This document shows positions 17,513 to 43,486 of a stretch of 43,486 bases of DNA, piece after piece. Within the stretch, counting starts at the first letter, position 1. The number at the start of each line of letters is the position of its first letter. The DNA is from Lachnospiraceae bacterium (lineage in GTDB: Bacteria; Bacillota; Clostridia; Lachnospirales; Lachnospiraceae): contig JAFVCL010000099.1 in NCBI GenBank assembly GCA_017479285.1, forward strand, positions 1-43,486, read 5' to 3'. A model generated the notes under the pieces. It saw only the letters and a program-made list of their open reading frames with translations, had not been told where the DNA came from and did not search any database. The translations under genes and the position numbers were made by a program.

Positions 17513-17573
17513 CTGCTGTCTCCTGTGACATTTTAAAATACAGATTGGCGATGTTCCGTGATCTGCCTGGTAA

Positions 17574-19199: not shown

Positions 19200-20844
19200 T
19201 ATCTTTTCCTCCGAACAATACTATAAACAAAACAGGCAGCATGAGAAACAGCGGCCAGGAATATCTGAATGATGCCATGGGGGAGAGGAGCATGATCCCG
19301 AACTGTGCAAAAAGCGGGAAAAACAGCGGAAGGTTCTCTGTGAAAAATCCCTTCTCCTTTCCGGCTGCGCGTACGATAAAAAGCATAAATGAAAAGAGCA
19401 GTATCCAAAGGGAGAAACCGGGGACGAAAAATACTCTCAGCACCGGTGTTTTTCGCAAAGTCTCCGATGTACACAGATCATAATATAATCTTTCGAGGGC
19501 GGGAGCGTTTATAAGGCTCATTCGCTCAAGCGGCAGGGCAAAGCTCTCCGGGGGATAATTGTCGTACATAACATAAGAATATCCATAATATCCGGGATAC
19601 CAGTAGCCTGCCGTGTTTGACAAAAATGCCATTAAGTATTCCTTTGAAAACTGTCTTCCAAGGGAAAAGTAAAATCTCCAGAAAGCCACCGGATCTTCGT
19701 TGTAGCGGTCGGAGTAGAAGCAGCTCTTCGCAGGGTCGGATATATACGGATCGTAGGCTCTCTCCCGGGGCGGATCCATCCAACGGAGATTATCGATGTA
19801 GTAATCAAGCTTTTCCGTCTGTTCCGGGGAAAGGGCATTTCCCATTTTAACCGCAACCCGCTGCATCTGTTGTATTGGTATACTGAGGGCTTCCCGTATC
19901 TGCCCCTGTTCAATCCCGAGAGCATAAAAAACCGGACCCGTATATATTTTAAATAAAAGCACGGGAAGGAGCATAACAATAAAAAGCGGGATATAAGGCT
20001 TTGCGGCTTTTATTTTTTTTATTCTGAAAAGGAGCAAAAGGATAAGCGCAAATAAGTAAATGTGGAGCCCGTTGTTTCTTGTCGCAAACATAAGAAAAGA
20101 AACGATGGGGAAAAGGAAATAGTTGGCCCTGCTTTTGCAATAAGCCCCCGGATCCTTTACAATCTCGGTAAAGTGGCACAGGAAAAGAACGAGAAACGCA
20201 CTGTGCAGCGTATCTTTTATCATTGTAACGCTAAGGCAGGCGTTCATAAACCATAGCCCCGAAAAAACCGCGGTTATTATTATCACAATCCCGGGAACCT
20301 TAAAGCGCTTTAACAAAACGGCAAGTCTTGCGAGCGCATAGCTGAGAAGTATCATCTGGAAAGCCGATAAAAAACCAAGCCCGATCCCGCAGCTCGAGAA
20401 CAGAGCCTCTCCGAACCTCATAAATACGCGTAAGAGAAAGGTATGGAGAACGGGATGATGATTGTTTGTTATCTCTCCGAGAGCGCTTCCCGTCTGGGAT
20501 ATCATATCATAGGAAAGAATACCGGGAAAGAATATCAAAAAGGCAGGGATCCAGAAAATAAGGATAAATCCCCACAGGATTAATAAAAGAGCATTGTCGG
20601 AAAGGCGATCCGGCAGCAAAGGAAAGGCTTTTTTTCCAATGTGGGATAAAACCCCGGGAATGACGAGAAAAAAAAGGATGTTAAGGCCGGTGCAGACTGA
20701 AAAGCAGACAATGAAGGGAATGACCCGGCCTGCCCCGGGTCCGAATTCCTGGGAGAGGACCATCGGTCCTGCGACAGTATATGCTAAACTGTAAAAAAAG
20801 GCTAAAAGCGGAGAAATGACGAGGGGGAGAATGAACCTTTTCAT
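19180..20844 (-). CDS. DUF6020-type polytopic membrane protein
   Basis: This 554-residue protein has about twelve membrane helices and a large external loop after the central helices (about 325-440, with WYPGYYGYSYV). The segment TGSALGEITNNHHPVLHT (in part) is the signature I associate with DUF6020 proteins, which resemble GT-C glycosyltransferases in topology. The start was placed at the ATG behind AAGGAG, 51 bases inside the longest open frame. It is the first of three coupled minus-strand genes. A role in envelope glycan assembly is inferred from topology and neighbours only. Confidence 0.75.
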   Translation of the reverse strand: MKRFILPLVISPLLAFFYSLAYTVAGPMVLSQEFGPGAGRVIPFIVCFSVCTGLNILFFLVIPGVLSHIGKKAFPLLPDRLSDNALLLILWGFILIFWIPAFLIFFPGILSYDMISQTGSALGEITNNHHPVLHTFLLRVFMRFGEALFSSCGIGLGFLSAFQMILLSYALARLAVLLKRFKVPGIVIIITAVFSGLWFMNACLSVTMIKDTLHSAFLVLFLCHFTEIVKDPGAYCKSRANYFLFPIVSFLMFATRNNGLHIYLFALILLLLFRIKKIKAAKPYIPLFIVMLLPVLLFKIYTGPVFYALGIEQGQIREALSIPIQQMQRVAVKMGNALSPEQTEKLDYYIDNLRWMDPPRERAYDPYISDPAKSCFYSDRYNEDPVAFWRFYFSLGRQFSKEYLMAFLSNTAGYWYPGYYGYSYVMYDNYPPESFALPLERMSLINAPALERLYYDLCTSETLRKTPVLRVFFVPGFSLWILLFSFMLFIVRAAGKEKGFFTENLPLFFPLFAQFGIMLLSPMASFRYSWPLFLMLPVLFIVLFGGKDNAEKNG

Positions 20845-20962
20845 TGACAGACTCCTTAATCTATTATAGGCGCCGGTATCAAAATAATGTACCAAACGCT
20901 AATGTTATTACAGTATAGCATAAAGGGGTTGAAAATTGAAGTCGGACATAGCCTTTTAAATA

Positions 20963-28081: not shown

Positions 28082-30907
28082 TTAATCATGCAGGAACTCA
28101 AAGCTCTTCATGCTGCAGGTTCCGCTTCCTTCGAAGGTAATATAGAGGGAGCGTACTCCGCTTACCGGAGCGAAATGGCACACGCGCTCGGTCCAGACGT
28201 TGGTTCCGTCAATACTCATTCTTCCGAGGATCTCGCCGTCCCATTCTGTTCTTACCTGTATCTCTCCGTTAAAGTATCCCCTCGTCTTAACAACAAGGCC
28301 TGTGGCATTCTTTAGATCAAAATACTTAAAGCCTGCGGTGCATCCGTTCGTCAGCTGCCGGATGTATCCGATATTACGGTCACCGTCTCCGCCCTCCTGA
28401 ACCACTGCGGGCGCGTCACCCTCCACATACAGAGAATGCTTTGAATTAAAGAGATTACATACAATGTATGCCGGATATTCGCCGGCGTCGGAAAGGGGAC
28501 CGCCGTTTAATCCGCAGGAGGTAATCTCGGCCTGGAGGATCTTTCCGTTTTCGTCAAATGAAAGCTCCTCCGCGCATACTTGGCGTGAGAACCAGGTATT
28601 GTTGGTCTGGCGATGGTAAAAGATGTACCACTTGCCGGAAATCTCGATCATACTTCCGTGGTTGTTTCCACCGTAAGCCATCGCCATATCGGAAGGTTTG
28701 TAGGTATCTATTCCGATATCACAGTTGCTTACGAGGACGCCGCCGTAGGTAAAAGGCCCTGCGGGACTCTTTGAGGTTGCGTAGCAGAGCTCGTGCATAA
28801 CCTCCGAGGAATATATGAAATAATATGTATCGCCCTTTTTGCGTATCGAGGGAGCCTCGAAGAACGCATGACCCTCAAATTCCGTGCCCTTGCTGTAGGC
28901 ATCACCGGGCACTACAAATTTCGGCTCTTCGATAACGGTAAGCATATCCGGACCGAGCACGGTATACATCGCACCGTGTCTTGATTTATCCCCGTGACCC
29001 GCAAAGCCGGTATAAAGGTAGGTTCTGTCTCCTTCGGTCAATACGCCGGGATCGAACTGCGGCTCATCATTTTCTATTGTTACCCCTGCTTCAAATTTTG
29101 TCTCATCGTTCTTTCCGGTAGTCCTGCGGTCGCCGAGCTTCGTTCCGTCTTCGTAATGGACATATCCGTAGAATTCGAAGGGACCTGCGGGCTTATCGCT
29201 CACGGCAACAGATACGACCGAAACCTTATCAAGCACATAATACAGATAATACCTTCCGTCGGGTCCAACAGTCACATCCGGAGCGTAGAGGCACATATGT
29301 CCGTCTTTGTTGTAGGGGTCGGCGGTCTTGGGGTAGATGACTCCCTCGTAGTGCCAGTCCCCGAGGTCCGAGACCGGAGCCGACCAGCATACATAATCTC
29401 CGAGACAGAAGGTCTCTCCGTCGTAGAGATCGTGGGAACCGTATACATACACTCTGTCGCCGAATACATAGGGCTCACCGTCCGGTACATACTCCCATGA
29501 GGGAAGATAAGGGTTTACAGCCTGCTTTCTCCCGGTGATTCCCAGCCTTATACCGCCCTCTTTTCCGGGGACGGCGCCCCGTCCGTCAAAGACCATTTCC
29601 GCTTTATCTCCGGCAGTATACGAAGCCCATACGGGTAAAGGTTCCCCCGTGGTTCCGATGCCGTTGGGATCCGAGGTCTTTACGAAGTTTGCGACATAAT
29701 CAGCCATCTGCCTTGCGAGGTTAAAATGTCTTCCCTCGAAGGGTCTCCAGCATTTTCCAAGGGTCTCGAAGAAAAACCAGAGATCAACCGAATGGAAGGT
29801 TCCGGGATGGTCCCATCCGGGTATATCGGGATCAAATCTGTAATAGTAGTATTTCTGGCTAAGTCCGTTCTTTTCCGCGTCAAGGAAGGTGGTTTTCACG
29901 GACTGCTCAACCATGCTGCTTCCGCCAATCAAAAATTCGTCGGAGGTGTTTCCGGAGATTACGGGAGCGTTTGCACATCTGCCGGCAGCAAGCATCTCAA
30001 GGGGATCTCCGGTGCAGAACTTTCCGTCCCGGATCGGGAACATCCTCGGATGGCTCGCGACATACTCACCGTACTTAGCGCGAAGCTCGAGAGCATCCAT
30101 TTTTCTTGCTTCATCGAGGCTGCTGATTCCCGCAAAGGCAAAGAAATCCTCGCCCTTTTTTTCCGCGGCGCTTAAATCCAGAGGTCTGAATAAATCGTCT
30201 TCCGAATCGTCCGGGTGGCGTATCATTCCGCTTAGAACGATAGCTCCCTTTATCTTGTCGAAATTCTTTTCATTTGTAAACTGGTGCATCACGCTTGCAC
30301 CGCCGGCGGACTGTCCCATTATGGTTATCCGGTCGGGGTCTCCGCCGAATGCGGCAATATTCCGGTACACCCATTCAAGACCGAAGCGCTGGTCGAGGAG
30401 ACCGAAATTTGCGGGAGCATCGGGCGCTTCCTTTGTTATCTCGGGATGTGCCAGAAAGCCGAAAAGGGCGAGCCTGTAATTTATGCTTACAACAATTATT
30501 CCTCTTTTGGCGAGCTGTTCGCCGTCAAATTCCATCTCTGCGGTGTAGCCCCACTGGAAGCCGCCTCCGAAATACCAGACGAGGACCGGAAGCTTTTCAT
30601 CGTCCTTCTTTGCGGGAGTCCATACATTCAAATAAAGGCAGTCCTCACTCATGGGGATCTCGCTGTCAACATGCCAGTCGCGGCAATAAATATCGTCGCC
30701 CAGACCGGGGGTATCCTGAACGGAGATCGGTCCGAATTTATACGCCTCATAAACACCTTCCCAGTCTTTTGCAGGCTGCGGCGCGCGCCATCTGTTCTCC
30801 CCGACGGGCGGTGCGGCAAAGGGGATTCCCTTGTATACGGTTATCCTTGGATTGTTTCCGGGAAGTCCGCGGACCTCTCCGTTTTCAACTCTTGTTTGTC
30901 TTAGCAT
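28082..30907 (-). CDS. Bifunctional carboxylesterase - GH43 glycoside hydrolase with C-terminal carbohydrate-binding-like domain
   Basis: This 941-residue enzyme has no signal peptide, so it is probably cytoplasmic. Residues about 5-460 are a type-B carboxylesterase: YKGIPFAAPPVG, SEDCLYLNVWTP, oxyanion segment YFGGGFQWG, nucleophile Ser200 in GQSAGG, and a His around 372. About 465-800 is a GH43 five-bladed propeller with acidic residues in PDGEPYVFGD (476-478), Asp619 in PQFDPGV and Glu684 in FFEAPS. The last 130 residues look like a carbohydrate-binding beta sandwich. It could remove an acyl group and an arabinose or xylose from the same imported arabinoxylan oligosaccharide. The start is the ATG behind AGGAGGGATAAC; the frame is open 180 bases further up but without a site and with unlike composition. 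It is divergent from another GH43 gene. Confidence 0.92.
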   Translation of the reverse strand: MLRQTRVENGEVRGLPGNNPRITVYKGIPFAAPPVGENRWRAPQPAKDWEGVYEAYKFGPISVQDTPGLGDDIYCRDWHVDSEIPMSEDCLYLNVWTPAKKDDEKLPVLVWYFGGGFQWGYTAEMEFDGEQLAKRGIIVVSINYRLALFGFLAHPEITKEAPDAPANFGLLDQRFGLEWVYRNIAAFGGDPDRITIMGQSAGGASVMHQFTNEKNFDKIKGAIVLSGMIRHPDDSEDDLFRPLDLSAAEKKGEDFFAFAGISSLDEARKMDALELRAKYGEYVASHPRMFPIRDGKFCTGDPLEMLAAGRCANAPVISGNTSDEFLIGGSSMVEQSVKTTFLDAEKNGLSQKYYYYRFDPDIPGWDHPGTFHSVDLWFFFETLGKCWRPFEGRHFNLARQMADYVANFVKTSDPNGIGTTGEPLPVWASYTAGDKAEMVFDGRGAVPGKEGGIRLGITGRKQAVNPYLPSWEYVPDGEPYVFGDRVYVYGSHDLYDGETFCLGDYVCWSAPVSDLGDWHYEGVIYPKTADPYNKDGHMCLYAPDVTVGPDGRYYLYYVLDKVSVVSVAVSDKPAGPFEFYGYVHYEDGTKLGDRRTTGKNDETKFEAGVTIENDEPQFDPGVLTEGDRTYLYTGFAGHGDKSRHGAMYTVLGPDMLTVIEEPKFVVPGDAYSKGTEFEGHAFFEAPSIRKKGDTYYFIYSSEVMHELCYATSKSPAGPFTYGGVLVSNCDIGIDTYKPSDMAMAYGGNNHGSMIEISGKWYIFYHRQTNNTWFSRQVCAEELSFDENGKILQAEITSCGLNGGPLSDAGEYPAYIVCNLFNSKHSLYVEGDAPAVVQEGGDGDRNIGYIRQLTNGCTAGFKYFDLKNATGLVVKTRGYFNGEIQVRTEWDGEILGRMSIDGTNVWTERVCHFAPVSGVRSLYITFEGSGTCSMKSFEFLHD

Positions 30908-30929
30908 GTTATCCCTCCTAAATATGTGA

Positions 30930-30947
30930 CGCTGATAATATTCAGCG
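30930..30947. promoter_or_regulatory. 18-base palindrome in the esterase-GH43 leader
   Basis: CGCTGA and TCAGCG flank TAATAT, 23 bases upstream of the start codon on the minus strand. This could be an operator or leader hairpin. Confidence 0.4.
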
Positions 30948-30987
30948 CGGTTGCCACTTATAGTCATTTTATATAAACAGCATCCGC

Positions 30988-30995
30988 ATTTGCTT
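30988..30995 (-). promoter_or_regulatory. AAGCAAAT element facing the esterase-GH43 gene
   Basis: This is an exact minus-strand copy of the 8-mer found twice in front of the opposite GH43 gene. It lies upstream of AT-rich -10 candidates (TATAAA, TATAAG) on the minus strand. Confidence 0.4.
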
Positions 30996-31085
30996 ATCTT
31001 ATTTTGCTCGAAAATACTAAAATATTGCGAAAGGTGGAAATACTTGGCTAAAGCTGCCCGCCGGACAGGGCGGGCTTTGCCTGTC

Positions 31086-31114
31086 AAGCAAATATTGGGC
31101 AGTTGTAAGCAAAT
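31086..31114 (+). promoter_or_regulatory. Direct repeat AAGCAAAT with 21-base period
   Basis: Two exact AAGCAAAT copies (31086-31093 and 31107-31114) lie two helical turns apart, upstream of a TATAAT (31145-31150) that has no good -35. Direct repeats at about 21 bases are the usual arrangement for dimeric AraC-type activators. The regulator identity is inference; none is encoded in the window. Confidence 0.45.
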
Positions 31115-31144
31115 TGTGTGTGGAAGAATAAGATCTTAAATAGC

Positions 31145-31150
31145 TATAAT
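31145..31150 (+). promoter_or_regulatory. Candidate -10 of the GH43-CBM6 gene
   Basis: A perfect TATAAT lies 50 bases before the start codon without a matching -35. It is probably activator dependent, given the direct repeats 30 bases upstream. Confidence 0.45.
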
Positions 31151-31199
31151 CGGCATATGATAAGTATTCTAACCAGGAAATGAGAAAGGTACAGAGGAA

Positions 31200-32651
31200 A
31201 TGGAAGAACTTTTTAAGGAAATTGAGATCGCAAAGGCAGTTAAGCCGCTGACGGATCATAATCCGCTTATGACACAGCGCTTCGGAGCCGATCCGTACGC
31301 GCTTGTATACGACGGAAGAGTGTATATTTATATGACCGGCGATACGCCGATGTACGAGGCTGACGGAAGCCTTAAGGAAAACAATTATTCCAATATATAT
31401 ACGATAAATATCATCTCCTCCGCCGATCTTGTAAACTGGACCGACCATGGAACCGTCTACGCGGCCTCGTCGAAGGGACAGGCAACCTGGGGGACAAATT
31501 CATGGGCACCCGCCGCAGCGTATAAAAATATAGACGGAAAGGATAAATTCTTCTTGTATTTTGCCAATGGGGGAAACGGAATCGCGGTTCTTGAAGGCGA
31601 CACGCCCTACGGACCCTTCACAGACCCTATCGGAGGACCTCTTATCTCGAGACAGACGCCTACCTGCGCGGAGGTTGCATGGCTCTTCGACCCTGCTGTG
31701 CTTATGGACGATGACGGAAAAGCATATATCTACTTCGGCGGGGGAGTGCCGAAGCCCGAGATGGCAGCAAATCCGGGAACGGCAAGAGTAGCCAGACTCG
31801 CCGATGATATGATAAGTCTTGACGGGGATCCTGTTCCGATTGAAAATGTGGAATATCTTTTTGAGGATTCCGGAATAAATAAGATTGACGGTACTTATTA
31901 TTATTCATACTGCTCCAATTTCAGCATGACAAAGGAAGCGATGGAGGAGAAGGGATACCGGATGGGCGAGATAGTTACGATGAAGTCCGACAATCCCATG
32001 GGACCTTTTGTTCCCGCAAATCCAGTGCTTGCAAATCCCGAGCATTTCTTCGGACGCGGCGGAAACAACCATCACTGTATGTTTGAATTCAAGGGAAACT
32101 GGTACATTACATACCACACAAGGATACTTGAAGAAAAGCTCGGGATGAACGGCGGATACCGCAGCACTAATATTGATTTTATAAAGCTGGACGAAAACGG
32201 GGCGCCGACAACCTCCATCGGAACAAGGGAGGGAGTTCCCCAGGTCGGAACCATTGACCCCTACAGTACAGTCCCCGCCGTTACGCTGGCCAATTCCGCA
32301 GGGATAGAGACCGTGCAGTATGGCGAGGATGCGGTTAAATACGGCTCCGGAACGATGATACTCTCGGGAATCTGCGACGGAAGCTGGACCTGCGTAAGCG
32401 GTGCGGATTTCGGAGACAGAAGCGCAAAGAAGATTTCCGTAAAGGTTCGGGGAAAAGGAGCGGGAGCGATCAGAGTAAGCCTCGATTATCCCAACAGGAA
32501 CACGATTGCCTATATTCCGGTGGATAACCCCGGAGAGGAGTTTACGGAGGTTTCCGCAGATCTTATCGCGGAGGCGATCGGCGAGCACAAGGTATTCTTT
32601 ACATTTGCGGGAGAGGACTTTGAGGTTCTTGAATGGAGATTTGAAAGATGA
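31200..32651 (+). CDS. GH43 arabinofuranosidase-like enzyme with CBM6-like domain
   Basis: This 483-residue enzyme has no signal peptide, so it is likely intracellular. The GH43 propeller (about 15-335) shows the expected acids: Asp31 (base) in FGADPYALV, Asp164 (pKa modulator) in WLFDPAVLMD and Glu222 (acid) in YLFEDSGINKIDGTYYYSY (in part). The C-terminal about 350-483 reads as a CBM6-type beta sandwich, the domain pair of arabinoxylan arabinofuranohydrolases. The intracellular Xsa43E of Butyrivibrio has this architecture and releases arabinose from xylo-oligosaccharide side chains. The ATG follows AGAGGAA. It is divergent from the esterase-GH43 gene and both probably work on the same imported oligosaccharides. 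Confidence 0.92.
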   Translation: MEELFKEIEIAKAVKPLTDHNPLMTQRFGADPYALVYDGRVYIYMTGDTPMYEADGSLKENNYSNIYTINIISSADLVNWTDHGTVYAASSKGQATWGTNSWAPAAAYKNIDGKDKFFLYFANGGNGIAVLEGDTPYGPFTDPIGGPLISRQTPTCAEVAWLFDPAVLMDDDGKAYIYFGGGVPKPEMAANPGTARVARLADDMISLDGDPVPIENVEYLFEDSGINKIDGTYYYSYCSNFSMTKEAMEEKGYRMGEIVTMKSDNPMGPFVPANPVLANPEHFFGRGGNNHHCMFEFKGNWYITYHTRILEEKLGMNGGYRSTNIDFIKLDENGAPTTSIGTREGVPQVGTIDPYSTVPAVTLANSAGIETVQYGEDAVKYGSGTMILSGICDGSWTCVSGADFGDRSAKKISVKVRGKGAGAIRVSLDYPNRNTIAYIPVDNPGEEFTEVSADLIAEAIGEHKVFFTFAGEDFEVLEWRFER

Positions 32652-34583: not shown

Positions 34584-34610
34584 TAAAGTTATTTTGAATG
34601 ACTCCGATAT
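34584..34610 (+). promoter_or_regulatory. Sigma-28 (flagellar) promoter of flagellin 1
   Basis: TAAA, 15 bases, then TCCGATAT closely match the flagellar consensus TAAA-N15-GCCGATAA. The start codon is about 100 bases downstream. Confidence 0.85.
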
Positions 34611-34711: not shown

Positions 34712-35524
34712 ATGGTAGTAAAACACAACATGCAGGCAATGAACTCTAACAGAATGTTAGGATTAACTTCAAGTTCACTCGCTAAGTCGACTGAGAAGCT
34801 TTCTTCAGGATATCGTGTAAACAGAGCAGCCGATGATGCAGCTGGACTTGCGATCTCCGAGAAAATGAGAAGACAGGTACGCGGACTTACACAGGCAAGC
34901 CGCAACGCACAGGATGGTATCTCAATGGTACAGACCGCAGAAGGTGCGCTGAATGAAGTACACGATATGCTTCAGAGAATGAATGAACTTGCAGTACAGG
35001 CTGCAAACGGAACGCTTGTTTCTTCACAGGACAGAGTATATGTAAACCTTGAGGTATCCGCGCTCATCCATGAAATTGATGATGTTGCGAATAACACCAA
35101 GTTCAATGGCATCAGCCTTCTTAATGTCAGCACGACTATCACTCTTCAGGTTGGTACCGAGGCATCACACAAGCTGACCATCAGTCTTGAGAAGATGACT
35201 GCCAAGGGACTTAAGGTAAGCGCAGTAACTGTATCAACGCAGGCTGGAGCAAGCAAGGCTATAAGCACCATCAAGAATGCTATCAACCAGCTCAACAAGC
35301 TTCGCGCTAAGCTCGGTGCTTACCAGAACAGACTTGAGCACAAGATCGCAAACCTTGACAACGTAGTTGAGAACACTACAGCCGCTGAGAGCCGTATCCG
35401 TGATACTGATATGGCAAGCGAGATGGTTAAGTATTCAAATTCCAATATTCTGCAGCAGGCAGGTCAGTCAATGCTGGCTCAGTCCAACCAGAGCAACCAG
35501 GGCATTCTCTCACTTCTTGGATAA
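34712..35524 (+). CDS. fliC: Flagellin 1
   Basis: This is the filament subunit, exported by the flagellar type III apparatus and polymerised outside the cell. At 270 residues it is a minimal flagellin: N-terminal D0/D1 (about 1-140, with NRMLGLTSSSLAKSTEKLSS and the conserved RVNRAADDAAGLAISEKM), a short variable middle (about 140-190) and C-terminal D1/D0 (190-270) ending ANLDNVVENTTAAESRIRD (in part) and the hydrophobic ...GILSLLG. The surface domains D2/D3 are absent, leaving little variable surface. It has its own sigma-28 promoter and terminator and differs from the following copy at about 13 positions. Confidence 0.97.
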   Translation: MVVKHNMQAMNSNRMLGLTSSSLAKSTEKLSSGYRVNRAADDAAGLAISEKMRRQVRGLTQASRNAQDGISMVQTAEGALNEVHDMLQRMNELAVQAANGTLVSSQDRVYVNLEVSALIHEIDDVANNTKFNGISLLNVSTTITLQVGTEASHKLTISLEKMTAKGLKVSAVTVSTQAGASKAISTIKNAINQLNKLRAKLGAYQNRLEHKIANLDNVVENTTAAESRIRDTDMASEMVKYSNSNILQQAGQSMLAQSNQSNQGILSLLG

Positions 35525-35850: not shown

Positions 35851-36663
35851 ATGGTAGTACAGCACAACATGCAGGCAATGAACTCTAACAGAATGTTAGG
35901 GTTAACCCAGTCAACACTTTCAAAGTCAACCGAGAAGCTTTCTTCAGGATATCGCGTAAACCGTGCGGCAGATGATGCAGCAGGTCTTGCAATCTCCGAG
36001 AAGATGAGAAGACAGATTCGTGGACTTACACAGGCAAGCCGCAACGCACAGGATGGTATCTCAATGGTACAGACCGCAGAAGGTGCGCTGAACGAAGTAC
36101 ACGATATGCTTCAGAGAATGAATGAGCTTGCAGTTCAGTCTGCAAACGGAACTCTTGTTTCTTCACAGGACAGAACATATGTTAACCTTGAGGTATCCGC
36201 ACTCATTCACGAGATCGACGATGTTGCGAACAACACCAAGTTCAACGGCATCAGCCTTCTCAATGTAAGCACAACCATCAAGCTTCAGGTTGGTACCGAG
36301 GCATCACACAAGCTGACCATCAGTCTTGAGAAGATGACTGCTAAGGGACTTAAGGTAAGCGGAGTAACTGTATCAACGCAGGCTGGAGCAAGCAAGGCTA
36401 TAAGCACCATCAAGGCTGCTATCAACCAGCTCAACAAGCTTCGTTCAAAGCTCGGTGCTTACCAGAACAGACTTGAGCACAAGATCGCTAACCTTGACAA
36501 TGTAGTTGAGAATACTACAGCTGCTGAGAGCCGTATCCGTGATACCGATATGGCAAGCGAGATGGTTAAGTACTCAAATGCTAACATCTTGCAGCAGGCA
36601 GGTCAGTCAATGCTGGCTCAGTCCAACCAGAGCAATCAGGGTGTTCTTTCACTCCTCGGCTAA
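35851..36663 (+). CDS. fliC: Flagellin 2 (tandem copy)
   Basis: This 270-residue flagellin is about 95% identical to flagellin 1 (roughly 13 substitutions, such as K4Q, S20Q, V56I, T144K and A171G by my reading), with the same domain order and the same lack of D2/D3. The start is the ATG behind AAGGAGGTAAC; an in-frame ATG 42 bases upstream lies before the ribosome binding site. The changes are scattered, with T144K and A171G in the short middle segment. Separate promoter, leader and terminator allow the two copies to be set independently. Confidence 0.97.
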   Translation: MVVQHNMQAMNSNRMLGLTQSTLSKSTEKLSSGYRVNRAADDAAGLAISEKMRRQIRGLTQASRNAQDGISMVQTAEGALNEVHDMLQRMNELAVQSANGTLVSSQDRTYVNLEVSALIHEIDDVANNTKFNGISLLNVSTTIKLQVGTEASHKLTISLEKMTAKGLKVSGVTVSTQAGASKAISTIKAAINQLNKLRSKLGAYQNRLEHKIANLDNVVENTTAAESRIRDTDMASEMVKYSNANILQQAGQSMLAQSNQSNQGVLSLLG

Positions 36664-36693: not shown

Positions 36694-36718
36694 GGGAGAG
36701 CTTGCTCTCCCTTTTTTT
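36694..36718 (+). terminator. Terminator of flagellin 2
   Basis: GGGAGAG and CTCTCCC close on a CTTG loop, followed by seven T. Confidence 0.9.
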
Positions 36719-36807: not shown

Positions 36808-39078
36808 ATGGCTCATTTAAAGATATCATCAGATTTTTTCAAGCCTGAAATACGGGAAGGTTTTCCTATAGGAGAGCTTATGAAGAGAAACTGGGCAGCC
36901 CAGCTTCAGGTATTGGAGGATGTTAGGGAATTATGTGCAAAGCATGATATAAAATGGTTTGCTTATTCGGGAACTCTTCTTGGGGCAGTCCGGCACAAGG
37001 GATATATACCGTGGGATGATGATGTCGATATCTGTATGGTGGGAGAGGATTTCATAAAATTCCTTTACTACGCGAAGGATGAGATGGATGGCAGGTATAT
37101 TCACCTGAGTCCCTATGATACGGGCAGCTGGGATCAGAGGACTATTTTCCGTATAGCAAATAACGATGTTATGGACTTCAGCAAAAGCCACATGGATCAG
37201 TGGCAGGATTGTCCTCTTGCGATAGGAACAGATGTATTTCCTTTTTATTATGTACCAAGAGACGAAAAAAAGGCAGAGTATATATTAGAACTGCTTACCA
37301 ATGTAGAAACTCTCTTTTATCTGAATGAATACTATCTTAAGCACCTGAAAGCCGGAGATATGGAGACTGCCAAGGCACAGGAGGAATTGATAGCGGCCAG
37401 CATTCTTGGACTTCAGGAGGATACGGGCTTTACCTTTACCGGAGAACGACCTCTGGCCAACCAATTGTGTATGCTCTTTGACCAGATATGTCGTTTTACC
37501 TTAGAAGACGAAGCTGATTATGTGACAAGATATAATGTTTATATGGGCAATCAGAAAGCAGTATTGCCGAAGGAGCTGTTTTACAAGCAGACGATGGTTC
37601 CCTTCGAGATGCTGGAATTACCTTCGGTTGAGGATTACGATAAATTCTTAAGGTGGCAGTACGGCGATGAATATATGACCCCGTTAAGGGTGGGTGCAGC
37701 TCATGAGTATCCATATTTTTCCAAGCAGATACGGGTGCTTGACACCAAGCTTGAATTATATGACTGGGCGGAGAAGCAGGGGGATATAGAACACATACAG
37801 ATAGAGAAGCCTGTTAAACAAAAGCTCTCCGATTCTAAAAATGACAAATGTGTGGTCCTTTATTACACCAGCCTTCGGGAGATGATCATATACAGTGAGT
37901 ATGTGATAAATAAGATAAAGGATGTTATAAGGTATTTCAGTGAGCATAAGGATACGATGTCGCTTTATTGGTGCCCGGGAGGATTCCCTGACGTCGATAA
38001 ATACCCAGGTATCCCTTCCGCAGACAGGATAATCCCGGTCCTTAAGGAGGAATACTTAAAACTCATCGAAGAATTTAAGACAGCCGGGATGGGTGTATGC
38101 GACGAATCGGGCAATCTTGATAAGGCAATCAATTCCTGTGATGTATACTATGGAGATGAGGGCTTTTTGCAGGGAGCCTTTTCCGCAACGGGAAAACCCA
38201 CATTCATACAGGATTACCATATCCTTTTGCATAAGGACAGTGTTTCTCCGGATGATGCAAATATAAAGAGCACATTCTATCCTAAAGGAAGCGGACTATT
38301 TAAAGGAAACATAAAGCCCGAATTTTCTGACGCGGCTATGGAAATGAACGGAAGTACTTACGCCATGGCTTCAAACATAAATGGTCTTTTCAAGGTAGAC
38401 AGAGAAGCGGGAACCTGTGAATTACTGTATTTTGTAAAGGGCGAGAAGGCCGACGGAGAGGCTCTGTACGCGAAGGCTTATCCTTTTGGCAGCAAGATAG
38501 TTTTCCTTCCGCAATCCGCAAACAATTTGGTCATTTATGATCCGGCGAGAAATGTTTATAAGGAGATTAATGTATATTCGGACGCGTACAACGCATACTG
38601 CGACGCTGCAAAATATGCGGACTGTATCGATTATGAGGGCAAGCTGTTTTTATTTGGAGAAAGATATGCAGATGTGCTGAAGGTAGACCCGGAGAGCGGA
38701 GAGATAAAGAAGTTTGAGACCGGAAAAGATGACACGATCTGGATGCGGCATGCAGCTTACCGTGAAGGAGGTCTGGTCAGACTGGTTTCTGCCAATTCAA
38801 ATGAGTTCCTTACCTTCAATCTAAGGAAGGAGCAGCTATTCATCCAGGCCAGCTACAGCAAAGCCAAGGTTGAACCTACGCTTGTTAAGCTCAGTGAAGA
38901 AAAGAACAGACATTCACTCAAAGGTATGGAATTTAAACTTGAAGGAAATCTTGATAAATATATAGAAGGTACTTTTAACGGATATGACGATGGCAAAGGA
39001 ATGGTCATAAAAGAACAGGACGACTGGATTTCCTTTGAAGATGTGATCAAATACACGGAGTGGAAAAAGGGAAAGTGA
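36808..39078 (+). CDS. LicD-family phosphotransferase with long C-terminal extension
   Basis: This 756-residue cytoplasmic protein has no signal peptide. Residues about 25-330 form a LicD/fukutin-type nucleotidyltransferase-like domain with the signature GAVRHKGYIPWDDDVDI (59-75). LicD proteins transfer phosphocholine or polyol-phosphate groups from CDP carriers to glycans. About 360-480 (CVVLYYTSLREMI, YYGDEGFLQGAF) resembles the CDP-glycerol glycerophosphotransferase-like regions of surface polymer enzymes. About 510-740 has repeated short strands (NINGLFKVDREAG, NNLVIYDPARNV, ADVLKVDPESGE), suggesting a propeller. It is the first gene of a packed cluster, 144 bases after flagellin 2. The next gene overlaps it by four bases. 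Confidence 0.85.
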   Translation: MAHLKISSDFFKPEIREGFPIGELMKRNWAAQLQVLEDVRELCAKHDIKWFAYSGTLLGAVRHKGYIPWDDDVDICMVGEDFIKFLYYAKDEMDGRYIHLSPYDTGSWDQRTIFRIANNDVMDFSKSHMDQWQDCPLAIGTDVFPFYYVPRDEKKAEYILELLTNVETLFYLNEYYLKHLKAGDMETAKAQEELIAASILGLQEDTGFTFTGERPLANQLCMLFDQICRFTLEDEADYVTRYNVYMGNQKAVLPKELFYKQTMVPFEMLELPSVEDYDKFLRWQYGDEYMTPLRVGAAHEYPYFSKQIRVLDTKLELYDWAEKQGDIEHIQIEKPVKQKLSDSKNDKCVVLYYTSLREMIIYSEYVINKIKDVIRYFSEHKDTMSLYWCPGGFPDVDKYPGIPSADRIIPVLKEEYLKLIEEFKTAGMGVCDESGNLDKAINSCDVYYGDEGFLQGAFSATGKPTFIQDYHILLHKDSVSPDDANIKSTFYPKGSGLFKGNIKPEFSDAAMEMNGSTYAMASNINGLFKVDREAGTCELLYFVKGEKADGEALYAKAYPFGSKIVFLPQSANNLVIYDPARNVYKEINVYSDAYNAYCDAAKYADCIDYEGKLFLFGERYADVLKVDPESGEIKKFETGKDDTIWMRHAAYREGGLVRLVSANSNEFLTFNLRKEQLFIQASYSKAKVEPTLVKLSEEKNRHSLKGMEFKLEGNLDKYIEGTFNGYDDGKGMVIKEQDDWISFEDVIKYTEWKKGK

Positions 39079-40415
39079 TAAAAGTAATTACCTACGGAAC
39101 ATTTGATATGCTTCATTATGGCCACAGGCGCCTGCTCGAAAGAGCAAAGGCGCTGGGGGATTATCTTATCGTCGGCGTAACCGCTGAGGATTTTGACAGA
39201 TCGCGGGGCAAGATCAATGTCCGTCAGACTCTTATGGATCGTATAGCCGGTGTAAAGGCAACAGGTTTGGCTGACGAGATAATAGTTGAAGAGTATGAAG
39301 GTCAAAAAATAGATGATATTTTAAGATATGATATTGATATTTTCACCGTGGGAACCGATTGGGTAGGAAAGTTTGACTACCTGAATGAATACTGCAAGGT
39401 AATATATCTTGAACGCACTGAAGGAATATCCAGTACCGAGATAAGATCGGAGGAATCTTTTACAAGGCTCGGTATAGTCGGGGATATACCCCATTTAAGA
39501 AAGTTTGTAAAGGAAAGCACTTTTGTTAATGGGGCGGAGCTTTCCGGAGCAAGTCTGACCGATACAGAGAATGATTTTGAGATAATAGAAAACATAGAAC
39601 TGGATGTGGTTGACTTTAAAACGCTCCTTGGCAGATCTGATGCGGTATATATTTCATCTCATCCGTCAAAACACTATGAGCAGGTAAAGCAGGCACTTGA
39701 AAACGGAAAACATGTATTGTGTGAAGCTCCTTTAGCATTGTCATATAATGAGTGTGAAGAGTTGTTCAAAATCGCCGAAAAAAACGGGCTGATCCTTATG
39801 GAAGCGTTAAAGACAGCGTTCTCCACAGCTTATTCAAGGCTAATCCTCCTCGCTAAAAGCGGGAGAATTGGAAATATTGTCTCGGTAGATGCGACCTGTA
39901 CGAGTTTGTCTTATTCTCCGGCCACAACCGCGGAGGAAAGAGCTAAATTATGGAATACCATGTGTGCATGGGGACCTACCGCTTTACTTCCTGTATTTGG
40001 ATTATTGGGTAAGGATTACAGATCGCTGGAGCTTATATCAAAGACCGAACAGGATGATAAAAAATTCGATCTTTTTACGCAGATAAATTTGCGATATGAT
40101 TCAGCTGTTGCGTCTCTTAAAATAGGAAAAGGTGTTAAGAGCGAGAGCGAAATGATCATATCAGGGGTAAAGGGATATATTTATGTTCCTTCTCCGTGGT
40201 GGAAGACGGATTATTTTGAACTGCGATATGAGAACCCCCAGGACAACAGGAGATATTTCTATCAGTTGGACGGGGAAGGCATAAGATATGAAATCGCCTG
40301 CTTCTTAAAATCAATAGGAAGCGGGAAAGTAGCAGCTTACTTAAGTAAAGAAGCATCGCTTTTCAGCGCGGATGTAGTGGGACGTTTTTATTCGGGAGAT
40401 TACACTGAAATATGA
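39075..40415 (+). CDS. Cytidylyltransferase - Gfo/Idh/MocA oxidoreductase fusion, GTG start
   Basis: Residues 1-128 are a TagD/GCT-type cytidylyltransferase with GTFDMLHYGH (8-17) and RTEGISST (114-121), which activates glycerol-3-phosphate or a similar polyol phosphate to the CDP form. About 130-446 is a Gfo/Idh/MocA-type domain, but its dinucleotide loop (GIVGDIPHLRKF) is degenerate and the usual EKP motif reads EAP in HVLCEAPLAL, so the catalytic Lys is missing. The GTG at 39075 overlaps the LicD stop (GTGA); an in-frame GTG 15 bases upstream is the alternative. A fused synthase-activase would make and charge a polyol; whether the reductase half is active is open. Confidence 0.88.
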   Translation: MIKVITYGTFDMLHYGHRRLLERAKALGDYLIVGVTAEDFDRSRGKINVRQTLMDRIAGVKATGLADEIIVEEYEGQKIDDILRYDIDIFTVGTDWVGKFDYLNEYCKVIYLERTEGISSTEIRSEESFTRLGIVGDIPHLRKFVKESTFVNGAELSGASLTDTENDFEIIENIELDVVDFKTLLGRSDAVYISSHPSKHYEQVKQALENGKHVLCEAPLALSYNECEELFKIAEKNGLILMEALKTAFSTAYSRLILLAKSGRIGNIVSVDATCTSLSYSPATTAEERAKLWNTMCAWGPTALLPVFGLLGKDYRSLELISKTEQDDKKFDLFTQINLRYDSAVASLKIGKGVKSESEMIISGVKGYIYVPSPWWKTDYFELRYENPQDNRRYFYQLDGEGIRYEIACFLKSIGSGKVAAYLSKEASLFSADVVGRFYSGDYTEI

Positions 40416-41248
40416 GAAAAGCACTTGTTCTTTCTACGGAGGACCTTGAAAAACTTCATAGTATAAATCTGGAAATGATTTCTGAGGTTGACAGGATATG
40501 CAGGAAGAATCATATTGAGTATTCACTTGATGGGGGAACTCTTTTGGGGGCTGTCAGACATAAGGGATTTATTCCGTGGGATGATGATGCCGATCTGATC
40601 TTTACGCGTCATGAATACGCAAGGTTTTATCGCGCCTGTAAGAAAGAACTGGATGCTTCAAGATTTTTTCTCCAGGATTACAGAACCGACAAGCATTATC
40701 GATGGGGATATGCAAAATTACGCCGCAAAAACACGGAATATGTCAGGGTAGGACAGGAACATTTAAAGCAGAAAACCGGAGTCTTTATTGATATTTTTGT
40801 CGTAGATAATATACCGGATGGCTTTCTGAAAAGAAATCTGTATTATGCCTTGAATTTCTGTGTGAGAAAAGCACTTTATGCTGAGCTTGGAATGAAACAA
40901 TCCGACAGTGTCTTTCTGAGGCTTTGGTATTCGTTGATTTATAGATCTTTTTCCAAGGACATTTTTTTTAACATACGCAACAGGCTGGCGTTTAGCGCTA
41001 ATAAACACAAAACTAAATTGAAAAGTCATTATCTTTATCCTTATCCAAGTCCTGAAACCAAGTATGGAATGCCTTCAGAATGCTTTGAGGAATATATGGA
41101 TATGGAGTTTGAGGGTAAAACATTCCGAGTGTTTAAACAATATAACCGCTATCTGACGCTTCTTTATGGCGATTATATGACACCACCGCCACCGGAGAAG
41201 AGAAATTTTCACTCAGAGGCATCAATCATAAGATTTTTAGAAGAATAG
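40412..41248 (+). CDS. LicD-family phosphotransferase
   Basis: This 278-residue cytoplasmic protein is of the compact LicD type. The signature GGTLLGAVRHKGFIPWDDDA lies near residues 43-62, followed by YRWGYAKLRRKNTEYV and the metal-site-like FIDIFVVDNIPDG. It likely transfers a phospho-group from a CDP-linked donor to a surface glycan or protein. The ATG overlaps the preceding stop (ATGA), so all three genes are coupled. It is the second LicD of the cluster and much shorter than the first, lacking its propeller part. Confidence 0.9.
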   Translation: MRKALVLSTEDLEKLHSINLEMISEVDRICRKNHIEYSLDGGTLLGAVRHKGFIPWDDDADLIFTRHEYARFYRACKKELDASRFFLQDYRTDKHYRWGYAKLRRKNTEYVRVGQEHLKQKTGVFIDIFVVDNIPDGFLKRNLYYALNFCVRKALYAELGMKQSDSVFLRLWYSLIYRSFSKDIFFNIRNRLAFSANKHKTKLKSHYLYPYPSPETKYGMPSECFEEYMDMEFEGKTFRVFKQYNRYLTLLYGDYMTPPPPEKRNFHSEASIIRFLEE

Positions 41249-41260
41249 GAGATTGTAACC

Positions 41261-41971
41261 GTGAATATTGCACTTCTTATAGCAGGTGGATCCGGTGCAA
41301 GAATGAAACAGGATATCCCGAAACAGTTTCTTACGGTGAATGAGAAACCTGTGATCGTATATACGCTTGAAGCTTTTCAGAGACATCCCCGAATTGATGA
41401 AATCGCTGTAGTGTGCATCGAAGGATGGGAACAGATACTTTGGGCTTATGCCAAACAGTTTAATATTACAAAGCTGAAAAATATTTTTGCCGGTGGAGAA
41501 AACGGTCAGTCATCGATAAGAAACGGTATTTTCGGATTAGAGAAGGAGCATTCACATGATGATATAGTGCTCATACATGATGCGATAAGACCGATGGTTT
41601 CAGAAGATATCATCTCTGACTGTCTGGTAAAAACCGAGCAGTTTGGAAATGCCATAACCGTTATTCCCTGTGCGGAGGCTATGCTGGAAACTAAAGATGG
41701 TGAGTCATCTGTCAGCAGTTATCCAAGAAGCGAATTAAAGCGTACTCAGACTCCTCAGGGGTTTAAACTTGGAGAACTTGCGGATATTCACAGAGAAGCG
41801 CTGGAAAACGGAATAACGGATTCTGTTGCAAGCTGCACACTGATGGTAGAAATGGGAAGAAAAGTATTTTTTTCGATGGGATCAGAGAAAAACATAAAGC
41901 TTACCACAGTAGAGGATATAGACATATTTAAAGCGCTTCTTGCTGCAAGGAGATCAGAATGGCTTAAATAA
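41261..41971 (+). CDS. IspD/TarI-like cytidylyltransferase, GTG start
   Basis: This 236-residue enzyme has the N-terminal nucleotide loop LIAGGSGARMKQDIPKQF, HDAIRPMVS in the middle and LKRTQTPQGFK near residue 165, as in the family joining methylerythritol-4-phosphate (IspD) or ribitol-5-phosphate (TarI) to CTP. In this LicD cluster a polyol-phosphate role is more likely than the isoprenoid pathway, which has ispE elsewhere in the window; the sequence alone does not prove it. The GTG follows AGGAG by nine bases. The next gene starts 13 bases after its stop. Confidence 0.88.
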   Translation: MNIALLIAGGSGARMKQDIPKQFLTVNEKPVIVYTLEAFQRHPRIDEIAVVCIEGWEQILWAYAKQFNITKLKNIFAGGENGQSSIRNGIFGLEKEHSHDDIVLIHDAIRPMVSEDIISDCLVKTEQFGNAITVIPCAEAMLETKDGESSVSSYPRSELKRTQTPQGFKLGELADIHREALENGITDSVASCTLMVEMGRKVFFSMGSEKNIKLTTVEDIDIFKALLAARRSEWLK

Positions 41972-41984
41972 TCCGGGAATATTT

Positions 41985-42953
41985 ATGAACAGTTATTTCA
42001 AGAATCAATCATATATAGAAGATGTAAACAGATCTTTAAATTCTGTTATCGCAAAGGAAAAGCTAAAGGATAAGAAAGTGCTGGTGACAGGAGCAGGAGG
42101 ACTGATTGGATCATTTATAACGGATGTCCTCACAGCTGCCGGATCACAAACTTTTGTTGCAGGAAGAAATACTGCAAAGCTTTCCGAAAGGTTTTCGGAA
42201 TCAGTTTCTTTGGAGTATGATCTTACTAAGGAAATATTATTTAACGAAGATTTTGATTACATAATTTACGCCGCGGGATATGGGCATCCGGCGGCTTTTG
42301 TTGAAAATCCGATAGGGATATTGACAGAAAGCATCAATGGAACGAGGCGGATGCTCGATTACGCAGTCGGACATTGCAAAGAACGACTTTTATATGTTTC
42401 CTCCGGAGAGGTATATGGAAACATAGATCCAATGACTCCGAGAGCATGTTACCCTTTAAGCAAGCAAGCGGGTGAAAATCTGTGTGCTTCCTATAAAGAT
42501 AAATACGGTGTAGATGCTGTGGCCGTAAGATTATGCCATACCTTCGGTCCCGGTATGTCCGAAAAGGATAACCGGGTGACGGCACAGTTTTTCAGAAACG
42601 CTTTAAGATCAGAGAATATCATCCTTAAAAGCAAAGGCGAGCAATTAAGATCCTATCTTTATGCTGCAGACAGTGCATCTGCAATACTGAGTGTGCTGAC
42701 ATCCGGGGAGTCCGGCAAGGCAATAGACATTGCATCGCGGGATTGTGAGATAACCATAGCGGAATTGGCAGGGATAATAGCCCGGGCAGCAGGGACAGAG
42801 GTAAGATTTGAGTTACCTGATGAGCTGGAGACAAAGCAACAAAGCCCGATAAAGCAGCAGCTGTTAAATGATGAAGACCTTAAGAAGATTGGATGGAGCA
42901 AATCCTTTACTTTAAGTGAAGGATGTACGAGAACGATAGCTGTGTTAAAGTAG
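41985..42953 (+). CDS. NAD-dependent epimerase/dehydratase (extended SDR)
   Basis: This 322-residue cytoplasmic enzyme has the Rossmann loop VTGAGGLIGSF, the catalytic Tyr-x-x-x-Lys in YPLSKQAG and SSGEVYG before it, followed by RLCHTFGPG. It belongs to the sugar-nucleotide epimerase/dehydratase class; TarJ-type reductases belong to another family, so this is not a ribitol-pathway TarJ. I placed the start at the ATG 13 bases after the preceding stop. A weak CGGGA precedes it; an upstream TTG overlapping the cytidylyltransferase is the alternative. It is the last gene of the LicD cluster. Confidence 0.85.
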   Translation: MNSYFKNQSYIEDVNRSLNSVIAKEKLKDKKVLVTGAGGLIGSFITDVLTAAGSQTFVAGRNTAKLSERFSESVSLEYDLTKEILFNEDFDYIIYAAGYGHPAAFVENPIGILTESINGTRRMLDYAVGHCKERLLYVSSGEVYGNIDPMTPRACYPLSKQAGENLCASYKDKYGVDAVAVRLCHTFGPGMSEKDNRVTAQFFRNALRSENIILKSKGEQLRSYLYAADSASAILSVLTSGESGKAIDIASRDCEITIAELAGIIARAAGTEVRFELPDELETKQQSPIKQQLLNDEDLKKIGWSKSFTLSEGCTRTIAVLK

Positions 42954-43034: not shown

Positions 43035-43486
43035 ATGGATTTTAAAGTTGGTGTAGGAAAATCTGATTTTGAAGAACTAAGAGAATCTGGAAATTACTAT
43101 GTTGATAAGACGGAACTGATTTATGAACTAGTTAACGATACGGATAATAAGGTTACACTATTTACCAGACCACGCAGGTTTGGAAAAACGCTCATGATGA
43201 GTATGATGGAAAATTTCTTCAGTATACGAAAGGATAGCGGGAGTATATTTGAGGGGCTTGCTATAACAGGGCACAGTGATTTCTGCAAGGAGTGGATGAA
43301 TCAGTATCCGGTGTTGTTTGTTTCGTTTAAGGATGTCGAAGCGGAAGATTTTGACGGCGCATACGAAATGCTTAAGGTACGGCTCGCAGATATCAGTAAA
43401 GATTTATCCGAATTGGTAAATGGCAATCAGGTAAACAAGTATGATTGCGAAACATTAGACAGACTTCAAGCTGAGAAAAGCACTTC
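43035..43486 (+). CDS. AAA-ATPase-like protein, 5' part (runs off the window)
   Basis: The visible 150 residues start MDFKVGVGKSDFEELRESG and continue YYVDKTELIYELV and RPRRFGKTLMMSMMENFF, the N-terminus of the AAA-ATPase-like family (Pfam AAA-ATPase_like) that in most members ends in a PD-(D/E)XK-type nuclease domain. The Walker A-like loop is RRFGKT. These genes are common in many copies in Clostridia and Bacteroidetes; the role is unsettled. GGGAGGAG precedes the ATG. The C-terminal part lies beyond the window. Confidence 0.88.
   Translation, partial: MDFKVGVGKSDFEELRESGNYYVDKTELIYELVNDTDNKVTLFTRPRRFGKTLMMSMMENFFSIRKDSGSIFEGLAITGHSDFCKEWMNQYPVLFVSFKDVEAEDFDGAYEMLKVRLADISKDLSELVNGNQVNKYDCETLDRLQAEKST

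Follow-up and report, generated by a model that had tools for sequence, protein, structure and literature searches.

The window analyzed here is a 43,486-nucleotide stretch of Lachnospiraceae DNA that constitutes one whole contig (C40) of a 102-contig, 2.67-Mb genome (G000; completeness, 87.5%). Directly behind two flagellin genes it carries five same-strand genes, g1 to g5 (cluster span, 36808 to 42953), encoding two LicD proteins, two cytidylyltransferases, and a reductase. We consider it probable that this cluster is a flagellin modification island acting by phosphodiester decoration, in which an alditol phosphate activated with cytidine diphosphate (CDP), together with a second donor, would be placed on flagellin. 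LicD genes recur beside flagellins in the genus and in 15 other genera, and a sister species has kept the transferases behind its flagellins and exchanged the donor genes.

Composition of the cluster

Both flagellins are 270 amino acids long and encoded on the plus strand: flagellin 1 at 34712 to 35524 (Flagellin_N, 1e-42; Flagellin_C, 2.8e-25) and flagellin 2, 95% identical to it, at 35851 to 36663, with its start set inside an open reading frame listed from 35809. An earlier reading of the sequence alone (hereafter the original prediction) had described them as lacking domains D2 and D3, and in agreement only DUF1664 was matched besides Flagellin_N and Flagellin_C, below its cut-off. The closest flagellin structure in the PDB is 9hpz, on which a search for publications found nothing usable. 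Pfam matches and coordinates confirm five tightly packed genes of the families and in the order first proposed, beginning 144 bases past flagellin 2; the subsequent spacings are −19, −4, +12, and +13 bases (g5 counted from 41985). All on the plus strand, they encode a LicD domain followed by a segment that we call module M and a further C-terminal part (g1, 36808 to 39078; PF04991, 1.2e-27), a TagD-type cytidylyltransferase fused to a Gfo/Idh/MocA-like domain with degenerate motifs (g2, 39060 to 40415; PF01467, PF01408), a 278-amino-acid LicD phosphotransferase (g3, 40412 to 41248; PF04991, 2.3e-42), an IspD/TarI-type cytidylyltransferase (g4, 41261 to 41971; PF01128, 7.2e-39), and a short-chain dehydrogenase/reductase (SDR) of the CDP-glucitol synthase (HS5.17) type (g5, 41985 to 42953; Epimerase-family PF01370, 1.3e-41). 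The listed start of g5 is a TTG at 41940; the ATG at 41985 is more likely and leaves about 28 residues ahead of the first strand, where enzymes of the HS5.17 type have an N-terminal helix before the Rossmann fold.

The two LicD proteins exceed the curated PF04991 cut-off of 22.6 bits (g1, 97.9; g3, 146), the g1 match spanning residues 43 to 286 of a domain that runs from about 20 to 300. Module M (approximately residues 335 to 480) resembles the C-terminal half of TagF-type enzymes (hhalign with two PF04464 proteins: probability, 95; E, 4e-8) and forms the C-terminal end in other LicD fusions of the genus; the part of g1 beyond it has a full-length counterpart in just one other genome of the genus, that of sister G012. 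This long C-terminal part has no Pfam match, and comparing the C-terminal parts of g1 and nine LicD fusions with PDB and Pfam returned only a sub-cut-off PF04464 match in locus L171. A structure model of the g1 part, built without an alignment, was unusable (predicted local distance difference test, 41), and a search for relatives in viral contigs gave nothing usable. For g3, fukutin-related protein is the only PDB sequence match up to an E value of 1 (4.3e-4).

As originally noted, the cluster is richer in A/T than the first 33 kb: the guanine-plus-cytosine (GC) fraction is 0.418 in the cluster, 0.453 in the flagellins, and 0.481 in positions 1 to 33000, where the lowest value among sampled 6,146-base stretches was at least 0.452 (step, 200). 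The shift in composition is real and the set is patchy, with full-length g2 and the g1 C-terminal part in 2 of 31 genus genomes; to that extent the suggestion of transfer made from the sequence holds.

Recurrence of LicD genes beside flagellins

A consistent location of homologous clusters away from flagellin genes would have refuted the original prediction, and no such pattern appears either in the genus or beyond it. LicD is present in 16 of 31 genus genomes (49 genes at 32 loci), and 12 of the 32 loci have a flagellin no more than 5 kb away, compared with 0.23 expected under random placement; by gene and by genome, the linkage holds for 17 of 49 LicD genes and 12 of 16 LicD-bearing genomes, the genomes not being independent of each other. 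The flagellins counted were those of the window class or its long variants (50 matches used), leaving out an approximately 400-amino-acid flagellin (about 39 to 47% identity), FlgL-like matches, and a class of 264 to 287 amino acids. Several contigs end inside flagellin genes (G017:C68, G028:C13, G001:C63, G022:C102, and G009:C28), as near-identical copies would cause, and the linkage counts may therefore be low estimates.

The genus neighborhoods that we fetched often have flagellins after FlaG-FliD-FliS-FlgN, interspersed with and followed by variable genes that include LicD fusions, Maf proteins, phosphonate-type cassettes, and sugar-nucleotide genes taken as cytidine monophosphate (CMP)-nonulosonate type. 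Maf proteins are known flagellin glycosylation factors, and they stand beside these flagellins in six of the nine genus genomes with a Maf over the cut-off. At L108 a LicD gene is located between flagellins. Loci L112 and L113 place a LicD fusion followed by ribulose-phosphate epimerase, IspD, and zinc alcohol dehydrogenase genes between FlgN and a flagellin (L112: FlaG-FliD-FliS-FlgN-LicD-Rpe-IspD-ZnADH-flagellin), a set whose families suggest a second, differently built CDP-alditol kit at the same place; epimerase or zinc dehydrogenase genes of this kind occur at 12 of the loci examined, all 12 with LicD and 6 with flagellin.

Sister genome G012 preserves the flagellin-g1-g2-g3 order, at 88 to 90% identity for the flagellins and then 69, 43, and 48%. 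No g4 or g5 match was found at that locus; after g3 come a further LicD, a phosphoenolpyruvate (PEP) mutase/cytidylyltransferase fusion, an iron alcohol dehydrogenase, and a thiamine pyrophosphate (TPP) enzyme, with a flagellin about 12 kb on. Relative to our genome, the transferases are kept and the donor genes exchanged. The PEP mutase fusion, iron alcohol dehydrogenase, and TPP enzyme lie between or behind flagellins in both G012 (L106, 14448 to 18669; L107, 6140 to 6949) and G029 (L120, 11705 to 15967) and resemble a CMP-phosphonate cassette sited with flagellin genes.

Outside the genus, 104 matches were listed when g1 was used as the query against 397 genomes (334 genera). The 53 best of these, without our own, G027, and G038, gave 40 loci, several on short contigs, and 16 of the 40 hold a flagellin within about 9 kb (16 of 33 genomes, 15 genera). 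Control loci with lower-scoring LicD (82nd to 103rd of the 104 listed matches, G051 excluded and two of them sharing a stretch; ranks 54 to 81 belong to neither set) have a flagellin at 1 of 20. Fisher tests on loci gave P = 0.0035 against this control and P = 0.044 against the g4 relatives described below. Two loci in two other genera hold nearly the whole set behind two flagellins: L198 reads fla-fla-LicD-LicD-LicD-g2(54%)-RgpF-g4(66%)-g5(34%)-g3(60%), and L167, over about 14 kb, has two flagellins, g2 (45%), and a contiguous g3(60%)-g4(73%)-g5(44%) in window order. The gene between g2 and g4 in the flagellin-linked island of L198 (5868 to 7103) is of the RgpF type (rhamnan synthesis) and could be a core glycosyltransferase or else point to a surface glycan.

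The main alternative is alditol-phosphate decoration of such a surface glycan (wall polymer, capsule, or exopolysaccharide), with the position beside flagellin due to chance or to flagellin-repeat recombination. We judge it unlikely, though a serious competitor, and the linkage results speak against it: g1-like LicD genes are flagellin-linked in many genera and lower-scoring LicD genes are not. On a FastTree phylogeny of 168 LicD domains, which has long branches and in which 53 rows count as linked (flagellin within 10 kb), the flagellin link requires 35 changes compared with 45 after shuffling (0 of 500 shuffles as low), and at least 16 changes are forced by well supported branches, so the link is clustered yet has been gained or lost repeatedly, unlike one inherited accident.

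A further possibility is that both acceptors draw on a shared donor pool, with the g1 fusion responsible for flagellin and g3 for a surface glycan. In its favor, the nearest relatives of g1 in the LicD tree differ from those of g3, LicD proteins of at least 450 amino acids are more often flagellin-linked (24 of 49) than shorter ones (29 of 119), and g3-g4-g5 also occurs with no flagellin in the stretch examined (L187, L201). Since no gene for an acceptor glycan was identified in the cluster's surroundings, and the only LicD genes of the assembled genome are the two of the cluster, we think this division of labor improbable.

Donor synthesis and the acceptor

The top PDB match of g4 is a ribitol-5-phosphate cytidylyltransferase (4jis, 2.9e-30); g4 also matches an isoprenoid synthase domain-containing protein (4cvh, 1.9e-15) that we take to be human. 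Two IspD-family genes in the assembled genome are over the cut-off, g4 and a copy on G000:C42, and because of that second copy we rejected g4 as the housekeeping IspD. For g5 the top PDB match is 8v4g (HS5.17; 8.8e-36, aligned over residues 25 to 316), which is described as an enzyme using NADPH (reduced nicotinamide adenine dinucleotide phosphate) to convert CDP-6-fructose to CDP-6-glucitol, with a PF01128 cytidylyltransferase as partner (PMC10918830). Genes g4 and g5 form the same adjacent PF01128-PF01370 arrangement as the CDP-glucitol and CDP-mannitol synthase pairs. In a phmmer alignment, g5 is identical to HS5.17 at all six positions with a catalytic or phosphate-binding role (E140, R164, Y167, K171, R208, and R233); residue numbers were assigned by eye, the offset being 2. 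We dropped the epimerase reading, and with it the label "SDR epimerase" of the original prediction, since the best match reduces a CDP-ketose and g5 retains its catalytic residues; g5 appears closest to a CDP-glucitol-forming reductase.

The TagD half of g2 looks sound (CTP_transf_like, 7.9e-18), with conserved HxGH and RTxGISST-type motifs, which we take to be the marks of TagD-type enzymes; its score for TIGR01518 (TagD), 108.6 bits, is below the cut-off of 165.4. Active Gfo/Idh/MocA oxidoreductases are marked by an EKP catalytic lysine and a GxGxxG dinucleotide motif, and the other half of g2 (GFO_IDH_MocA, 1e-16) has neither, reading CEAP for EKP and GIVGD for GxGxxG. A motif survey of 88 sequences found Ser in place of the EKP lysine (position 223) in 81%; five more distant relatives (L106, L166, L167, L170, and L171; 43 to 48% identity) retain EKP together with GxGRIA. 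TagD-Gfo fusions with both marks lost are widespread (window 39060 to 40415, L003 to L082).

The genome's own FliD lies on contig C69, where a flagellin-like gene, an aminotransferase, FlaG, FliD, FliS, and FlgN follow in order. The HisC-like aminotransferase (L165, 1483 to 2547; G000:C69) scores 228.7, below the HisC cut-off of 276.55, and is 61% identical to one inside the L167 flagellin cluster. Of the 80 named g2 loci, 24 have a relative of this aminotransferase in the neighborhood of g2 (21 at 65 to 83% identity), and in 16 the relative adjoins g2 on the upstream side, 13 of these being of the closer kind; thus a frequent g2 partner is also found among filament genes, a point against a surface glycan as the acceptor. 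As a guess, the aminotransferase may supply an amino-alcohol phosphate to g2, by comparison with Cj1437 and Cj1436, whose products are serinol phosphate and ethanolamine phosphate (PMC11800397). A literature search on serinol phosphate found nothing usable.

The substrates, order of steps, and flagellin acceptor that we infer would combine as follows. The enzyme g4 would link CMP to a ketose phosphate, either fructose-6-phosphate or a pentulose phosphate, giving a CDP-ketose that g5 would reduce to a CDP-alditol. Together with the HisC-like aminotransferase of the FlaG-FliD-FliS-FlgN operon, g2 would provide a second donor of the CDP type, for which a CDP-amino-alcohol or CDP-glycerol is plausible. 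The LicD enzymes g1 and g3 would then move the phosphoalditol and the second phospho-group, in the cytoplasm and before export, to a sugar already on the exposed D1 region of flagellin or directly to Ser/Thr. The one or two CDP-activated donors of the original prediction agree with the two routes suggested by g4 plus g5 and by g2; of its two candidate acceptors, flagellin and a surface glycan, flagellin is the likelier.

Several observations weigh against flagellin as the acceptor, and those on the donor genes favor a surface glycan. Close g2 relatives (at least 52% identity) have a flagellin of at least 50% identity at 1 of 84 loci (L198; one contig, L075 and L172, is counted twice), with a weaker 46% match at L078, and they often belong to Bacteroidales and other probably non-flagellated hosts; L043, in a Bacteroidales bin, is an aminotransferase-g2-LicD-IspD-SDR operon with no flagellin in the stretch examined. 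For g2 relatives at 43 to 48% identity, a flagellin is present at 5 of 10 loci. Relatives of g4 have one at 3 of 20 loci, one of them a fragment (20 of the best 24 matches, without our own, G038 and G280, both flagellin-linked, and G243:C18, not linked), or at 5 of 23 with three top matches added. Among 18 g4-g5 pairs outside the window, 5 have a flagellin and 13 have none in the stretch examined, and known PF01128-PF01370 pairs serve capsule and lipopolysaccharide (PMC10918830). The RgpF-type gene of L198, the low GC, and the patchy distribution also suit a surface glycan. We accordingly rejected linkage of g2 alone or g4 alone as main evidence, and linkage with flagellins recurs widely for LicD but only rarely for close g2 relatives. 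Because those relatives mostly lack a flagellin and the L043 operon is in a Bacteroidales bin, we read the donor genes as a general cassette that reached the flagellin locus, with which the low GC and patchiness agree.

Other counterevidence concerns the transferases and the chemistry. Twenty of the 32 genus LicD loci have no flagellin nearby, and the N-terminal LicD motif of g1 hardly predicts linkage by itself (31 of 87 with it, 22 of 81 without), although a form of this motif occurs in only 1 of 84 LicD frames of named g2 loci. No glycosyltransferase family was found among the cluster proteins, the rest of the genome not having been searched for one, and the assembled genome has no Maf. Residues that contact sugar or cytosine in HS5.17 differ in g5 by the same alignment (Gln196 to His and Asp212 to Gln), as does Met139 (to Gly), so the g5 product would be an alditol of uncertain identity, possibly another than that of HS5.17.

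Transcription also bears on the choice. A sigma-28-like promoter sequence (TAAA-N16-CCGATA; 34584 to 34609, plus strand) lies about 100 bases ahead of flagellin 1 and is the single match in the window to what we take to be the sigma-28 consensus, with 0.96 matches expected by chance; no such promoter with the right spacing was found before g1. The sequence TAAAGTTTT precedes flagellin 2 and g1 alike, with one further copy elsewhere, and before g1 no matching −10 element was seen by eye downstream at the right spacing. Between flagellin 2 and g1 sits a terminator-like hairpin with a T run (36694 to 36717, plus strand; hairpin, 36694 to 36709), weak on its own given eight terminator-like sites in the region compared with 7.0 by chance. 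Because this hairpin intervenes, we dropped co-transcription with flagellin 2 as evidence; transcription of the cluster on its own is likely, as a surface-glycan cluster would allow.

Behind g5, an AAA-ATPase_like gene (43035 to 43486) is cut by the contig end, and the cluster could extend past the contig. Such genes are frequent in variable regions, which fits an accidental position beside flagellin. Against a surface glycan as the acceptor, the only polysaccharide-assembly candidates outside the cluster among the scanned window proteins are UbiA, PMT-type, and DUF6020 membrane proteins at 16.6 to 20.9 kb, consecutive on the minus strand (16625 to 20895). The remaining scanned proteins are of transport, carbohydrate-degradation, regulatory, or housekeeping types or have no match; at 28082 to 32651, a carboxylesterase-GH43 fusion and a GH43-CBM6 protein, hemicellulose-type genes, lie in opposite orientation.

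Parallels in known systems

Modification of flagellin through phosphodiesters is known as such, and the LicD/IspD/TagD make-up described here would be a new version of it, as far as the portions of the literature available to us extend. In Clostridioides difficile type A (CD0240 to CD0244), the authors' model has a cytidylyltransferase make a CDP donor and a phosphotransferase move the phospho-group to the flagellin glycan, and the genes lie directly behind the flagellin gene (there fliC), as in the window (PMC10714395). A CDP-threonine model, the TagF-like CD0244, a ThrH-like enzyme, a methyltransferase, and a glycosyltransferase are particular to that system (PMC10714395), whereas the cluster here has LicD transferases, IspD- and TagD-type cytidylyltransferases, and a reductase. 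Pfam found no methyltransferase family among the cluster proteins, and LicD takes the place of a CD0244-type phosphotransferase, only module M being TagF-like in part; one partial PF04464 match lies elsewhere in the genome, on contig C54. The b-type flagellin of Pseudomonas aeruginosa PAO1 (PA1088 to PA1091) is comparable in that it carries a phosphodiester-linked group, there on a deoxyhexose, with PA1091 combining glycosyltransferase and phosphotransferase activities in one protein; the group is dimethylthreonine and not an alditol, and the sections consulted mention no LicD (PMC11833859).

The pairs HS5.18/HS5.17 of Campylobacter jejuni and Mnp1/Mnp2 of Streptococcus pneumoniae 35A are adjacent PF01128 and PF01370 genes like g4-g5 and make CDP-6-D-glucitol and CDP-D-mannitol for capsules (PMC10918830). 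The Geobacillus flagellin glycosylation island of G. thermoglucosidans DSM 2542 contains tagD, comparable to the TagD half of g2; there pgs stands beside tagD and a lipid is suggested, with no LicD or ribitol in the passages available (PMC5109656). Passages on enterobacterial flagellin islands likewise contain no CDP-alditol (PMC4875605), and licABCD in Campylobacter serves lipooligosaccharide according to the text available. Searches combining LicD, phosphonate, or CDP-ribitol with flagellin returned no such system in titles and abstract openings, a coverage with few subscription papers and no preprints, and a search on filament modification in Lachnospiraceae found nothing relevant. The original prediction knew of no described system with exactly this make-up, and the literature found, so far as its text was available, agrees.

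A functional parallel, not shown as one lineage, is the human ISPD/FKTN/FKRP route, which is eukaryotic and involves no flagellin. FKTN and FKRP are LicD-like, and the cluster resembles this route in that g3 matches fukutin-related protein and g4 matches 4cvh. In that route, an IspD-family enzyme makes CDP-ribitol and two transferases attach ribitol phosphate to alpha-dystroglycan (PMC4873967).

Beyond the window, we tentatively suggest that this bacterial family carries a swappable flagellin-locus island in which fukutin-family (LicD) transferases put CDP- or CMP-activated phospho-groups on the filament: alditol phosphates (IspD with an SDR, or with zinc dehydrogenase and ribulose-phosphate epimerase), phosphonates (PEP mutase cassettes), and amino-alcohol phosphates (aminotransferase with TagD). 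It would be a bacterial counterpart of human polyol-phosphate attachment to protein. In the literature available to us, phosphodiester decoration of flagellin has so far been described for two organisms, C. difficile and P. aeruginosa. The reading yields gene-based predictions that one mass spectrum per strain could check. If it is true, polyol-phosphate or phosphonate decoration of protein would be widespread in this bacterial family, simple bacterial enzymes would be at hand for reactions of the type defective in human dystroglycanopathies, and the decoration would bear on how hosts and phages recognize such flagella.

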